A stretch of 64,000 nt of DNA, from assembly GCF_903946935.1 (NCBI RefSeq), contig NZ_CAJAXH010000017.1, positions 1 through 64,000 on the forward strand, read 5' to 3'. Both the position numbers and the translations under genes were made by a program. Below are positions 206 through 17,693 of this stretch, piece by piece. Positions within the stretch are counted from its first letter, which is position 1. Each line of letters opens with the position of its first letter. Under the pieces are notes generated by a model. It was given only the letters and a program-made list of their open reading frames with translations, did no database searches and was not told the DNA's origin. This stretch comes from an uncultured Thiodictyon sp. (GTDB lineage Bacteria > Pseudomonadota > Gammaproteobacteria > Chromatiales > Chromatiaceae).

Positions 206-1789
206 ATGCTCACCCTCGCCCTCACCTTCCCCGCCGGCCGCTACCACGGCACACCCTGGGGCCGTCACGTCAACGAGGCGGACGTCGGCTGGCCACCGGA
301 TGCGTGGCGACTGACCCGCGCGCTCATCGCTACCTGGCACCGGAAACTCAACCCGGAGCAGTTTCCGGTCGAGCGCTTGACGGACCTCCTCGCAACGCTG
401 GCAACGGAGCCGCCGAACTACGCCCTGCCGGAGACCGTACACTTCCATACCCGGCACTACATGCCGGTGCGCGACAAACAGAGCCTGATCTTTGACGCCT
501 TCGCCCAAGTCGGCCGGGAAGCACAGTTGATCATTCAGTGGCCGAGCGCCGACCTGACCCCGCCGCAGGCGCAGTTGCTGGACGCACTGCTGATGGCCAT
601 CGGCTACCTGGGCCGGGCCGAGTCCTGGGTGTCGGCCAGCCGAATCACGGATTGGTCGGGTACCTGCGACTGCTATCCGTCCGAGGAGGCCATCGACACC
701 AAGACCGGTGAGGTCCGCGGCGACCTGATCCCACTCTGGCTGCCGCACCCGCCTGAGCGATACGCAGCGATTCGCGCCAGCCAGTTGGACGCCGCCCTCG
801 CCCGCGCCAAGGCGGATGTCCATGTAAAACGCGCCCAGGCCATTGCCGAGGGCAAGAAGAAGCCGCCTGACCCGGAAAAGACCAAGGTGCCGACCGAGAT
901 CCTGGCAACCCTGCCCGAAAGCTGGCTGGACGCCATCTCATTGGACACCGGCGACCTCCAATCCGCCGGTTGGAGTTCACCCCCGGCTGCACATCAGGTC
1001 TATTACCTGCGCCCCAAAGACGCGCTCCGGTTCATGGCGGCCAGACCGGCGCCGACCAGGAGGAATCGTCCGACTCATCCCGTCACGACCGCCCGCTTTG
1101 CGCTGTATGGCAAGCCCTTACCGCGTATGACCGATGCCGTCCGAGTAGGGGAGTTGCTACGCTTCGCCCTGATGAGCCGCGCCCGCCATTTGCCCGGCGA
1201 GGTGATCCCGGCCAGCCTGTCCGGCCATGGTCTGCCCAGCGGCAACCGCCATGGTCACGCCTTCTTCTTGCCGGAAGCGAACCTGCACGGTCGCATCGAC
1301 CACCTGGTGGTCCACGCCCCCGACGGGCTTGACGCTCAGGCCCAGGCCGCCATCGGCGAACTCGCGGCCATTTACACGCATGAGGGGGCCGAATGGCGGG
1401 TCTTACTGGAAGGGCTCGGTGAACCAGTGGACTTCGCACCGCACTCACCCTTACTGCGCACGTCCGCCTGCTGGGAATCGGTGACACCCTACCTGCATCC
1501 CTGGCACCGTAAGCGCGGCTTCGAGGTGCCGGAACAGATCGCACGAGAATGCCGCGCGCGCGGCCTTCCGGAGCCGAGCCTGGTGGAGCCGCGACCAGAC
1601 GCCAAGCCGCGAGCGCTGGATTTCCACCGCTTCCGCGGCAAACGCGGCCTGGAGCAGCCCGATCGGCACGGAAGCATGATTCGACTGGAGTTCTCAGAGC
1701 CGATCACCGGACCCTTGGCACTGGGGTTTGGGTGCCACTTCGGCTTGGGGCTTTTCAAAGCGGTCGGCGCACGCGGCGCAGATCGATGA
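206..1789 (+). CDS. csb2: Type I-G (I-U) Cas5/Cas6-like protein Csb2
   Basis: This 527-residue protein resembles the Csb2 (GSU0054) family, which combines Cas5- and Cas6-type RAMP functions in type I-G systems and is expected to process pre-crRNA and cap the 5' end of the crRNA in Cascade. The N-terminus (LTLALTFPAGRYHGTPWGRHVNEADV) and the glycine-rich C-terminus around residues 500-520 (GPLALGFGCHFGLGLF) fit the family, as does the length. The start has a good AAAGGAG ribosome-binding site. The next cas gene (cas4-cas1) is almost 940 bp away beyond an opposite-strand gene, so the usual tight cas operon is broken. Identification rests on recognised motifs and on the neighbouring cas4-cas1, cas2 and array; the nuclease residue was not pinned down. 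Confidence 0.85.
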   Translation: MLTLALTFPAGRYHGTPWGRHVNEADVGWPPDAWRLTRALIATWHRKLNPEQFPVERLTDLLATLATEPPNYALPETVHFHTRHYMPVRDKQSLIFDAFAQVGREAQLIIQWPSADLTPPQAQLLDALLMAIGYLGRAESWVSASRITDWSGTCDCYPSEEAIDTKTGEVRGDLIPLWLPHPPERYAAIRASQLDAALARAKADVHVKRAQAIAEGKKKPPDPEKTKVPTEILATLPESWLDAISLDTGDLQSAGWSSPPAAHQVYYLRPKDALRFMAARPAPTRRNRPTHPVTTARFALYGKPLPRMTDAVRVGELLRFALMSRARHLPGEVIPASLSGHGLPSGNRHGHAFFLPEANLHGRIDHLVVHAPDGLDAQAQAAIGELAAIYTHEGAEWRVLLEGLGEPVDFAPHSPLLRTSACWESVTPYLHPWHRKRGFEVPEQIARECRARGLPEPSLVEPRPDAKPRALDFHRFRGKRGLEQPDRHGSMIRLEFSEPITGPLALGFGCHFGLGLFKAVGARGADR

Positions 1790-1893: not shown

Positions 1894-2481
1894 TCACTCG
1901 ACCGCGGGCACCGGCCCCGGCACCTCAAAGACTTCCCATAACGGGATCTCGATGGGCGGTAGCGTGCCTGAACTTAGGGTCAGGGTCTCATTGGCGGCGA
2001 AGACGGCACCCTTGTCATAGCCATCGGTGCCCAGGAGAAAGCGGATGGCGTACTGCTCCAATGGATCGACCACCAGATATTCGCGCACCCCGGCACGTTC
2101 GTAGAGCGCCTTCTTATCGCGCAAGTCCCTGACCGAGGTCCCGGGAGAGAGGACCTCGACGATCAGGTCCGGGGCGCCTTCGATGTGGCTCGGGGTGATC
2201 TTGGCGGGGTCGCAGACCGCCAGAATGTCCGGCTGGACCACGTCGGATTCCGAGAGTTTCACATCCGTGGGGGCGACGAAGGGGCGACAGGGTTGGCCCC
2301 GGAGTTGCTGTTCGAGCCGGCTGAACAATCGGCCGACCACGTCCTGGTGCTTGATCGAAGGCGCCGGGGCCATGGCGTAGGCCACCCCCTCAATGAGTTC
2401 CCAACGGGTGTCGTCCGGCCAGGATTGGTAGTCGCTCCAGCTGAAACGGTCGGTGGGCTGCGCCAATGCGGGTAGGGACAT
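1894..2481 (-). CDS. Uma2-like endonuclease-fold protein
   Basis: This 195-residue protein belongs to the Uma2 (DUF820) family, with a PD-(D/E)XK nuclease-like fold and mostly unknown function. Supporting motifs are an early WELIEGVAYAMAPAP, a central VVQPDILAVCDP, then LIVEVLSPGTS and the basic DKKALYERAGVREYLVVDP. The PD...EVLS...K arrangement matches the presumed active site. The ATG at 2481 is chosen because a GGAGG lies six bases upstream; the TTG one codon earlier is less likely. The gene points against the cas genes and separates csb2 from cas4-cas1, suggesting insertion into the cas operon. The family is often multicopy, and another member lies at 49315-49860. Confidence 0.85.
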   Translation of the reverse strand: MSLPALAQPTDRFSWSDYQSWPDDTRWELIEGVAYAMAPAPSIKHQDVVGRLFSRLEQQLRGQPCRPFVAPTDVKLSESDVVQPDILAVCDPAKITPSHIEGAPDLIVEVLSPGTSVRDLRDKKALYERAGVREYLVVDPLEQYAIRFLLGTDGYDKGAVFAANETLTLSSGTLPPIEIPLWEVFEVPGPVPAVE

Positions 2482-2726
2482 CAAGGACCTCCAAGTTGTT
2501 GGTCCGGCCGGGCCGGTTGCCGCGAGTCGGGGGCGGCACTCCCAGTCCGCGCGGGGCCTTGATCATAACGCAGGCCGCCGCGCCTCGCAGCGACCCGTCG
2601 CGGCCTGGGGGCCGCTCCTACGGGACCAGTCATGTCAGCCGCACGGCGGACAGCGCCGGCAACAGATTCACCCCGACCGCGGCTATCGGCCGCGGCCACC
2701 CCCACCCATGTCAGACGGAGACCGCC
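2482..2726. other. Repeat-rich spacer between the Uma2 gene and cas4-cas1
   Basis: No gene is seen. Bases 2554-2580 carry a GGCCTTGATCATAA...GGCC element also found at 5847-5873, and inverted at 116-140 and 6073-6097. Bases 2585-2630 contain a degenerate GCGACCCGTCGCGGCC / GGCCGCTCCTACGG palindrome of REP type. Any promoter for cas4-cas1 should lie here; no clear sigma-70 boxes were found. Confidence 0.5.
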
Positions 2727-4541
<1,815 letters not shown>

Positions 4542-4641: not shown

Positions 4642-4935
4642 ATGGACCAGCGCCTCTATATCGTCGCCTACGACATCTCCGACCAGCGCCGCTGGCGCCG
4701 TATCTTCAAGCTCATGAAGGGCTATGGAGAATGGGTGCAACTCTCAGTCTTCCAGTGCCGCTTGAGCCCCAAGCAACACGCCGAGCTGATCGCGCTGTTG
4801 GACGGCATCATCGATCACGACGAAGACCACATCGTCTTGCTCGACCTGGGGGTCGCCGATAATGTGATCCCGCGCGTCGTCAGCCTGGGCAAGGCCGAAT
4901 TTGTGACCATCGAACACGAACCAGTGATCGTCTGA
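4642..4935 (+). CDS. cas2: CRISPR-associated Cas2
   Basis: This 97-residue protein is the Cas2 subunit that dimerises between Cas1 dimers in the spacer-integration complex. It starts MDQRLYIVAYDISDQRRWRRIFK, the diagnostic beta1 strand with the metal-site Asp in YDISD, and continues GYGEWVQLSVFQCRLS, a typical Cas2 ferredoxin-fold core. Its size is normal for the family. It lies 100 bp after cas4-cas1 and about 200 bp before the first CRISPR repeat, so the array leader lies between cas2 and the array. Confidence 0.95.
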   Translation: MDQRLYIVAYDISDQRRWRRIFKLMKGYGEWVQLSVFQCRLSPKQHAELIALLDGIIDHDEDHIVLLDLGVADNVIPRVVSLGKAEFVTIEHEPVIV

Positions 4936-5030: not shown

Positions 5031-5134
5031 CATGCCGCCGTGCATGACCATCAGGACCGAGCACCGGCCCCTCGCGGACCAGCGCTCGCAAAGTGCCCCG
5101 CAAGCCGCGCCACCAGCGGGCTCGGGGCCGGGCG

Positions 5135-5825
5135 GTTTCCCCGGCGAATTCGCCGGGGCCTCATTGAAGGTGCTCAATTTCCACAGTCTCAATCTAATCA
5201 ACGGAGTTTCCCCGGCGAATTCGCCGGGGCCTCATTGAAGGAGCGTAGAGGCGCAAGCGGTCGATGAGATTGAGCCCCGTTTCCCCGGCGAATTCGCCGG
5301 GGCCTCATTGAAGCCAGTGAAAAAGTCAGGGTATCAACAATGGCAGCACCCGCGTTTCCCCGGCGAATTCGCCGGGGCCTCATTGAAGCGTCGAACTGGG
5401 CTTTGCGGGCTTGGTCGCGCGGTTGTTTCCCCGGCGAATTCGCCGGGGCCTCATTGAAGCTAAAACCAGACTGATTATTATGGTTACCCATGAACAAGGT
5501 TTCCCCGGCGAATTCGCCGGGGCCTCATTGAAGCATTCCGGTCTATCTGGTCTGGGGGCTGCCCCATGGCGTTTCCCCGGCGAATTCGCCGGGGCCTCAT
5601 TGAAGCCCCTTGAACGCGGTCGCTTTGAGCGCGTCAATCAGCTGTTTCCCCGGCGAATTCGCCGGGGCCTCATTGAAGCTGGTAGATTTCGAGCAAGCCG
5701 CCCAGCCACGGGGGGAGTTTCCCCGGCGAATTCGCCGGGGCCTCATTGAAGCAGGCATGGTCCAGGTCCTCTTGGGTGAGCGCCCGCGGCGTTTCCCCGG
5801 CGAATTCGCCGGAGCCTCATTGAAC
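5135..5825 (+). CRISPR. Type I-G CRISPR array, 10 repeats and 9 spacers
   Basis: Ten 35-bp repeats begin at 5135, 5206, 5279, 5354, 5425, 5499, 5571, 5644, 5717 and 5791, with spacers of 36-40 bp. The repeat starts GTTT, contains the perfect palindrome CCCCGGCGAATTCGCCGGGG and ends CCTCATTGAAG; in RNA this gives an 8-bp stem capped by AAUU. The first nine repeats are identical. The last has a G-to-A change in the stem and ends in C, as expected for the leader-distal end, so the leader is on the cas2 side. No spacer was matched to a source by eye. Confidence 0.98.
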
Positions 5826-5929
5826 AGCCCCGCCCACGCCCGCGGCTGGCCTTGATCATAATATCGGCCGCCGCAGATGGAAGCGAGGTCGCTGGTCCGC
5901 GCAGCGGACCCTACGGGCGCGCTCAAGCC

Positions 5930-6050
5930 CTAGCAGGCTGTCGGACTTGCAACGTAACAACTTGATTATAAAAGATAAAAAGTTTACGCCTAAAAAGCGA
6001 AAACTCTTTAACTTCAATCGGTTACCTCATCAAGCCCGACAGGCTGCTAG
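5930..6050. mobile_element. 121-bp MITE-like element, copy 1
   Basis: The AT-rich element is bounded by CTAGCAGGCTGTCGG and its near inverse CCGACAGGCTGCTAG, with a non-coding interior. A second copy of equal length and, as read, identical sequence lies at 17398-17518. Terminal inverted repeats, lack of coding capacity and base composition unlike the host fit a miniature inverted-repeat transposable element mobilised in trans. CTAG at both ends may be the duplicated target or part of the repeat. Confidence 0.8.
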
Positions 6051-6102
6051 GGTCCGCTGTGCCGACGATCGCCTGGCCGGAATTATGATCAAGCCCCCTG
6101 CG

Positions 6103-6127
6103 GTTTCCCCGGCGAATTCGCCGGGGC
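6103..6127 (+). CRISPR. Orphan partial CRISPR repeat
   Basis: Twenty-five bases from GTTTCCCC through the palindrome to CCGGGGC match the first 25 positions of the array repeat; the CTCATTGAAG end is missing. It lies 278 bp past the last array repeat, beyond the MITE copy, in the same orientation. It is best read as a remnant of a formerly longer array. Confidence 0.8.
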
Positions 6128-6309
6128 ATGACGATAAAGTTCACCCCCTAGGTGATTGGTACAACGCCGATAATGCACTGACAAGCCTTGGCGAGCTTGG
6201 CGCGTTGGCGCGATAACTGCTCTTTCCGGGTTGAGCGCCTTGGAAGTTTCGGAGAACCACAGGTATGAAGCGATGAGGCGAGATCAGGTTCTCTGATTTA
6301 TGTGCGGTG

Positions 6310-17239: not shown

Positions 17240-17397
17240 CGAAATCTGTAGGGTCCGCTGCAAGGATAAGCTCGGATGACATCCGGAACATAGTCTTCGT
17301 CCGGCACAATTTCCCTGATAAGACTGTTCAGGGCACCGCGACCAAAGGCCGCCTCGTATTCCTGGGCAAGGCGCAGAAAGCCGCTGGTGCCTGATGC
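17240..17397 (-). pseudogene. SIR2-like domain fragment
   Basis: Read on the minus strand from 17397, the sequence encodes GFLRLAQEYEAAFGRGALNS then LIREIVPDEDYVPDVIRAYP with no start and no downstream catalytic part. The EYEAAFGR..L..LIRE.VPD.DY.P pattern resembles the segment that precedes the HxxLLxLPW block of SIR2-like NAD-hydrolase domains common in antiphage proteins. It is cut at its 5' side by MITE copy 2 and degrades at its 3' side into a GGTCCGC repeat. The family assignment is by eye over about 45 residues and therefore tentative. Confidence 0.4.
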
Positions 17398-17518
17398 CTA
17401 GCAGGCTGTCGGACTTGCAACGTAACAACTTGATTATAAAAGATAAAAAGTTTACGCCTAAAAAGCGAAAACTCTTTAACTTCAATCGGTTACCTCATCA
17501 AGCCCGACAGGCTGCTAG
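17398..17518. mobile_element. 121-bp MITE-like element, copy 2
   Basis: Same length and, as read, the same sequence as the element at 5930-6050, with CTAGCAGGCTGTCGG and CCGACAGGCTGCTAG ends. Identity between copies suggests recent mobilisation. It abuts a SIR2-like gene fragment. Confidence 0.8.
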
Positions 17519-17693
17519 GTGATTGCATGACTCAGCCGCTTTTCGTCGCCTGGAGGATAGAGCCTGGTACATACGCTCGCCGGGTTATGACTGCCACGGG
17601 CCAACGGATCGGGACGCGCGACTGGCAGCAGACCTTCCCCGGGCCGGGTTACCAAGCGGAGCTTGGTAACCAGGGAGCGAGGCATAGGACACG

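Follow-up and report, generated by a model that had tools for sequence, protein, structure and literature searches.

Two identical 121-bp sequences in a Thiodictyon genome belong to a high-copy MITE family with ends like those of an IS1182-family insertion sequence

Here, we report that two identical 121-bp sequences in a 64,000-nucleotide stretch of an uncultured Thiodictyon sp. (the window) are very probably copies of a MITE that is mobilised in trans by a DDE transposase of the IS1182 family, inserted at CTAG or a close variant and amplified in species-specific bursts. Identification of the 121-bp elements and their 122-bp relatives as MITEs is supported by their multi-copy occurrence, their inverted ends, an insertion sequence (IS) with matching ends in the same genome and MITE-free counterparts of their insertion sites. 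The elements encode no gene and leave no room for one as long as a transposase gene, and the designation 'MITE-like' in a preliminary description of the window was thus appropriate. In the proposed mechanism, an IS1182-family DDE transposase supplied in trans would recognise ends of the type CAGSCTGTCGGRCTT and move the non-autonomous MITE. Its target would be CTAG, a 4-bp palindrome, or a sequence close to it, such that CTAG flanks the inserted element on either side, and the gene-less near-palindrome would have been amplified in bursts that differ between Thiodictyon species.

Sequence comparison of positions 5930-6050 and 17398-17518 revealed identity over 121/121 bases within unlike flanks, and the ends of both copies, CTAGCAGGCTGTCGG and CCGACAGGCTGCTAG, agree with those given in the preliminary description (Table 1). 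That description knew of two copies. Both exist, yet they are members of a much larger family, as a copy count over the genome (5,995,245 bases searched) returned 71 full copies, 3 of 121 bp and 68 of 122 bp, with the window pair falling into the minor subtype. The copies are scattered across many contigs and comprise nine sequence variants. Among the 122-bp copies, 47/68 are identical and the remainder represent six further variants, one of which (on contig C6) is clearly diverged; the third 121-bp copy differs from the identical window pair by a single change. Identity between the two subtypes is about 75%. A pattern for the complete element occurred 70 times in the genome (41 + 29) as compared to 0 for the control, and one additional full copy on C46, with one altered end base, lies outside this count. 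Three copies at contig edges (L021, L028, L132) have an 18-base flank in common, and the assembly may therefore contain a single physical copy more than once, with one or two of the three being duplicates. The 47 identical 122-bp copies and the identical window pair lend partial support to the word 'recent' in the preliminary description. The family may still be active.

Table 1 Features of the window that are relevant to the two MITE copies
Feature	Position	Strand	Remarks
Cas56g	206-1789	+	upstream of the array
Type I-G Cas4-Cas1 fusion	2466-4541	+	upstream of the array
Cas2g match	4708-4932	+	match in the translated frame starts at model position 23
Type I-G CRISPR array, 10 repeats listed	5132-5837		last repeat with changed 3' end
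MITE 121-bp subtype, copy 1	5930-6050	+	CTAG at 5930-5933 and 6047-6050
Copy 1 inverted ends	5934-5944 / 6036-6046		CAGGCTGTCGG / CCGACAGGCTG
Decayed CRISPR repeat fragment past copy 1	6100-6127
Decayed DSR2-type (SIR2 domain) defence gene, part	17282-17397	-	81-82% to L104 and L105
MITE 121-bp subtype, copy 2	17398-17518	+	CTAG at 17398-17401 and 17515-17518; identical to copy 1
Copy 2 inverted ends	17402-17412 / 17504-17514
Same DSR2-type remnant, continued	17519-17573 (right limit approximate)	-	alignments to L104 and L105 across the junction

Every collected MITE copy starts and ends with CTAG (71/71), and the bases beyond show a mild preference only, with C before the element in 39/71 and G after it in 40/70. 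The terminal inverted repeats are 15-19 bp long. Over the 6.0-Mb genome, a 15-base end pattern, CTAGCAGNCTGTCGG, gave 154 matches (79 + 75) as compared to one for a reversed-pattern control, which places the recurrence of the MITE far above chance. By a sum over several counts, 142 of these ends derive from full MITE copies; the 12 others are IS ends (two on C24 and eight at contig edges), an unfinished element on C157 and a cut copy on C72. As a result of the inverted ends, the single-stranded DNA folds into one hairpin across the whole MITE (z -6.3 for 121 bp, -9.7 for 122 bp), and the predicted RNA folds of both strands have z values of -6.9 to -11.5. A host function is unnecessary to explain the MITE, and the effects that we see are insertions into open frames and other repeats. 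Some 122-bp copies are located in open frames that resemble, as named by eye, a response regulator (L124 at 1501), a reverse transcriptase (L245 at 601) and a NACHT-type ATPase (L242 at 601). Both window copies are adjoined by further dispersed repeats (5848-5921, 6138-6234 and 17618-17682), which have many matches in genomes of the genus.

An IS with matching ends is the 1565-bp element on contig C24 (8196-9760), which is bounded by CTAG and carries one gene, encoding a 459-aa transposase. Its 19-letter ends are identical at both sides; the contig terminates at the right end of the IS and the right flank thus lies outside the contig. The 121-bp MITE agrees with these ends in 18/19 letters at both sides, the 122-bp MITE in 18/19 and 19/19 letters. 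The transposase matched the NCBIfam model NF033551 (IS1182 family transposase) with 359.4 bits (cut-off 270), while the next-best model, IS5_4, scored 75.8 bits and remained below its cut-off of 140; Pfam matches were DDE_Tnp_1, DDE_Tnp_1_6 and DUF772. A single transposase gene, matching inverted ends and a length within about 1.5-1.7 kb are also in accordance with the layout of IS1182 elements. Eight more partial copies are present in the genome, every one broken off by a contig edge, and the C24-type IS is therefore multi-copy. Either this IS or a relative probably supplies the transposase for the MITE.

A scan of named genomes with the transposase found 281 relatives, of which 80 loci were kept, the nearest being in a Thiodictyon MAG with 95% identity. 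Of 26 related ISs in other bacteria, hand-picked from the 80 loci among those with flanks, we measured 25 (L213, a partial copy, was left out). In 24 of these 25, the ends are bounded by CTAG and their sequence is the same or differs little; the scoring of ends favoured CTAG starts by a bonus that decides ties, and the arms agree at 17-19/20 letters regardless. Next to the CTAG stands an inverted repeat that reads (C/G)AGNNTGTCGG. Such ends occur in Halochromatium, Thiocystis, Pseudomonas, Thauera, Bradyrhizobium, Mesorhizobium and others, and the lone exception, L209, has a related end without CTAG. Because the loci were found via the transposase, this transposase branch is tied to these ends and to CTAG independently of the MITE.

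The resemblance between MITE and IS is clear for the ends only. Local alignment of the MITE interior with the 281 bp inside each end of the C24 IS gave no convincing similarity: in the four comparisons, 193, 48, 171 and 13 of 300 shuffled sequences scored at least as high. The idea that the MITE arose from the C24 IS through loss of internal sequence was rejected on these scores. As the interior is not demonstrably from the C24 IS, a different IS may have supplied it, possibly the incomplete one that C157 carries at its edge. At this edge (L255 539-696, genome G000), the same kind of end is followed by an interior unlike those of the MITEs and of the C24 IS until the contig edge cuts the element, which is possibly a second IS.

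Some insertion sites that are occupied by the MITE in the studied genome have uninterrupted counterparts elsewhere. Flanks were long enough for junction joining in 66/71 copies; those of 34 copies were joined around one CTAG and 23 of these were compared with eight genomes of the genus Thiodictyon. At least ten loci have counterparts, picked for junction-spanning matches among the matches listed. All 13 comparisons over these ten loci (12 with other species and one with a paralogue in the own genome) align through the junction with one 4-mer and with the element absent, and the 0 to 6 gaps that the alignments contain are away from the junction. Counterparts of L234, L228, L009 and some others are repeat copies, which represent an uninterrupted version of the sequence and not proven orthologues; insertion polymorphism of the MITE is thus apparent at ten loci with counterparts that are either orthologous or repeat copies. 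The copy at 17398 is among the ten. For the copy at 5930, whose flanks consist of other dispersed repeats, there was no MITE-free counterpart in the genus among the matches listed.

According to the preliminary description, the 17398 copy lies beside a gene fragment. The gene remnant is indeed there, but the copy lies inside it and both of its flanks are of the DSR2 type. Alignments over the junction to genes in two related species of the genus have 101/132 (L104) and 103/136 (L105) identical columns, and both run 53-57 bases past the junction. The L104 protein matched the PADLOC model Dsr2 with 522.5 bits as well as Pfam SIR2_2, and the L105 protein matched Dsr2 with 407.9 bits. The right flank had no BLAST match to the DSR2-type gene until the element was left out, and then aligned. 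Homology is continuous through both sides with one 4-mer, and thus the insertion at 17398 moved or removed no neighbouring DNA. Judging from these alignments, the DSR2-type remnant is interrupted by the MITE and appears to have decayed for other reasons. The other copy, described earlier as lying in CRISPR debris, adjoins a type I-G array of ten listed repeats and is located, amid other dispersed repeats, between the final repeat of this array and a single decayed repeat fragment on the far side.

The MITE has an uneven distribution in the genus Thiodictyon. The 121-bp query matched 6/38 genomes, namely 6/8 within the genus (own genome included) and 0/30 outside. Ends numbered 154 in the own genome and 148, 108, 97, 32, 5, 3 and 3 in the other seven species of the genus, where IS and MITE ends were counted together. 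The assignment to Thiodictyon is borne out by the relative G007, in which a test stretch of 221 bases matches the Candidatus Thiodictyon syntrophicum plasmid NZ_CP020372.1 (484,824 bases) over its full length with 100% identity. Genome G006 contains at least 12 full copies of a 121-bp form with 90-91% identity to the query, and G005 contains a 122-bp form. In G001, elements of 235-404 bp (L247, L248, L249, L250, L251, L256) share the CTAG ends and have a different interior. A 59-bp perfect palindrome around a middle base in G002 (L252 558-616, contig C54) is bordered by CTAG and matches the left end of the IS in 33 of its first 35 letters; it is possibly a newborn MITE. Judging from a few elements per species, MITEs appear to have arisen repeatedly, and separately in different species, from a single type of IS end.

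It was previously proposed that the two copies mark rearrangements in defence regions, and recombination or deletion between MITEs in defence islands is conceivable given that both window copies are near defence genes, i.e., the type I-G CRISPR array and the DSR2-type remnant. At 17398, however, a rearrangement by the insertion itself is ruled out, as the right flank aligns to the same DSR2-type gene once the MITE is omitted; with a single 4-mer at the junction, the remnant runs on uninterrupted past the element, and flanks are likewise continuous in a relative or paralogue at the nine other loci. The remaining copies are spread over many contigs, and the location of 2/71 copies near defence genes is therefore no evidence of a link. 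We consider this explanation very unlikely, and the earlier proposal is not supported. A conserved palindrome with a structural or regulatory role (REP-like element, RNA hairpin or terminator), kept for the benefit of the host, is very unlikely as well. The strong hairpin on both strands would suit such a role, but is a consequence of the inverted ends. Moreover, counterpart sites exist without the element, 3/8 genomes of the genus have only 3-5 such ends, none of the 30 genomes outside the genus matches the 121-bp copy, and some copies lie in open frames such as the response-regulator-like frame (named by eye) at L124.

A further alternative to MITE insertion with target duplication concerns the origin of the CTAG borders. 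CTAG on both sides of the element suggests a duplicated target, and the data are compatible with a young CTAG that was duplicated on insertion. Yet the 4-mer in the counterpart is CTAG at only 1/10 loci (L228 compared to L263, 123/128 columns identical), and plain duplication of CTAG is therefore not proven. The other nine loci have CTGG, CCAG, CGAG, TTAG, CTGT, CTCT or GTGC, and with one comparison per locus the counterparts fit CTAG in 27/40 letters. CTAG is rarer in the counterparts than local identity would predict. Among 22 further copies of two MITE-bearing dispersed repeats, the site is CTGG, CTCG, CTTG or CCAG in 20 and CTAG in two (L263 and L271). It is unlikely, but deserves consideration, that the elements bring CTAG along as part of their ends and that this CTAG takes the place of a CTAG-like 4-bp target without any duplication, comparable to the inverted-repeat replacement proposed for IS1272. 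In favour of such an exchange, CTAG was found in 1/10 counterparts, whereas native CTAG was kept in 6/13 between-species comparisons (for comparison, conservation was 69% for CTGG and 26% for GTAC). The native value, however, derives from about four distinct sites, of which one is conserved (about 20 kb, four species), too small a number for a choice between the two readings. CTAG is rare in the window: it occurs 15 times, including four times at the borders of the MITE copies, whereas base composition predicts 202 occurrences and a second-order Markov estimate 59. Furthermore, CTAG is present at the site in one counterpart (L263) and in one repeat copy of the own genome (L271). For IS1272, which shares the transposase family, insertion reportedly removes a target inverted repeat of 21-85 bp and creates no duplication (PMC5678879); at our ten loci, by contrast, no longer stretch of target, and nothing of that size, is missing from the junctions. 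The broader proposition that this IS1182-type branch carries CTAG in its ends and exchanges a CTAG-like 4-mer, such that widespread ISs and MITEs create CTAG where it is otherwise strongly avoided, is likewise rather improbable.

MITEs with an IS1182-family partner have precedents. Two MITEs related to ISMac2 (IS1182 family) in Methanosarcina acetivorans are 160 and 169 bp long, with 14 and 7 copies and inverted ends of 26 and 25 bp, and the first has 4-bp direct repeats (PMC3852290). Like these, the Thiodictyon MITE is non-autonomous and has an IS1182-family partner; unlike these elements of an archaeal host, it is 121/122 bp long, has 71 copies and is bordered by CTAG; the comparison covers length, copy number, end length, repeats and partner family. 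The same source mentions very limited similarity of many archaeal MITEs to their partners outside the ends (PMC3852290). Among ISs of the family, ISPse1 is 1653 bp long with 16/16 ends and a 4-bp repeat (PMC3281130), and ISPsy36 is 1666 bp long with the palindromic target GGCC (PMC8027508). The C24 IS belongs to the same family, with 1565 bp as compared to 1653 and 1666 bp, and differs from ISPsy36 in its target, CTAG as opposed to GGCC (PMC3281130, PMC8027508). A CTAG target is given for ISPsy32, whose family is not stated in the text used (PMC8027508). The open-licence PMC literature on IS1182, MITEs and CTAG, and that on Thiodictyon insertion sequences and transposases, yielded, as far as consulted, no description of the 121/122-bp element. 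IS1182 MITEs are thus already known, and the Thiodictyon family is an addition to them.

The IS1182 MITE family described here, present in many copies and amplified recently, is an addition to the genus Thiodictyon. For genome annotation, our findings advise that the empty site should be checked before such copies are read as scars of defence-island rearrangement. Because its species hold miniature elements of differing size and interior behind like ends, the genus is a fair natural system for studying the origin and bursts of MITEs. It is also a fair system for asking whether IS1182 transposases duplicate or replace a palindromic 4-bp target.
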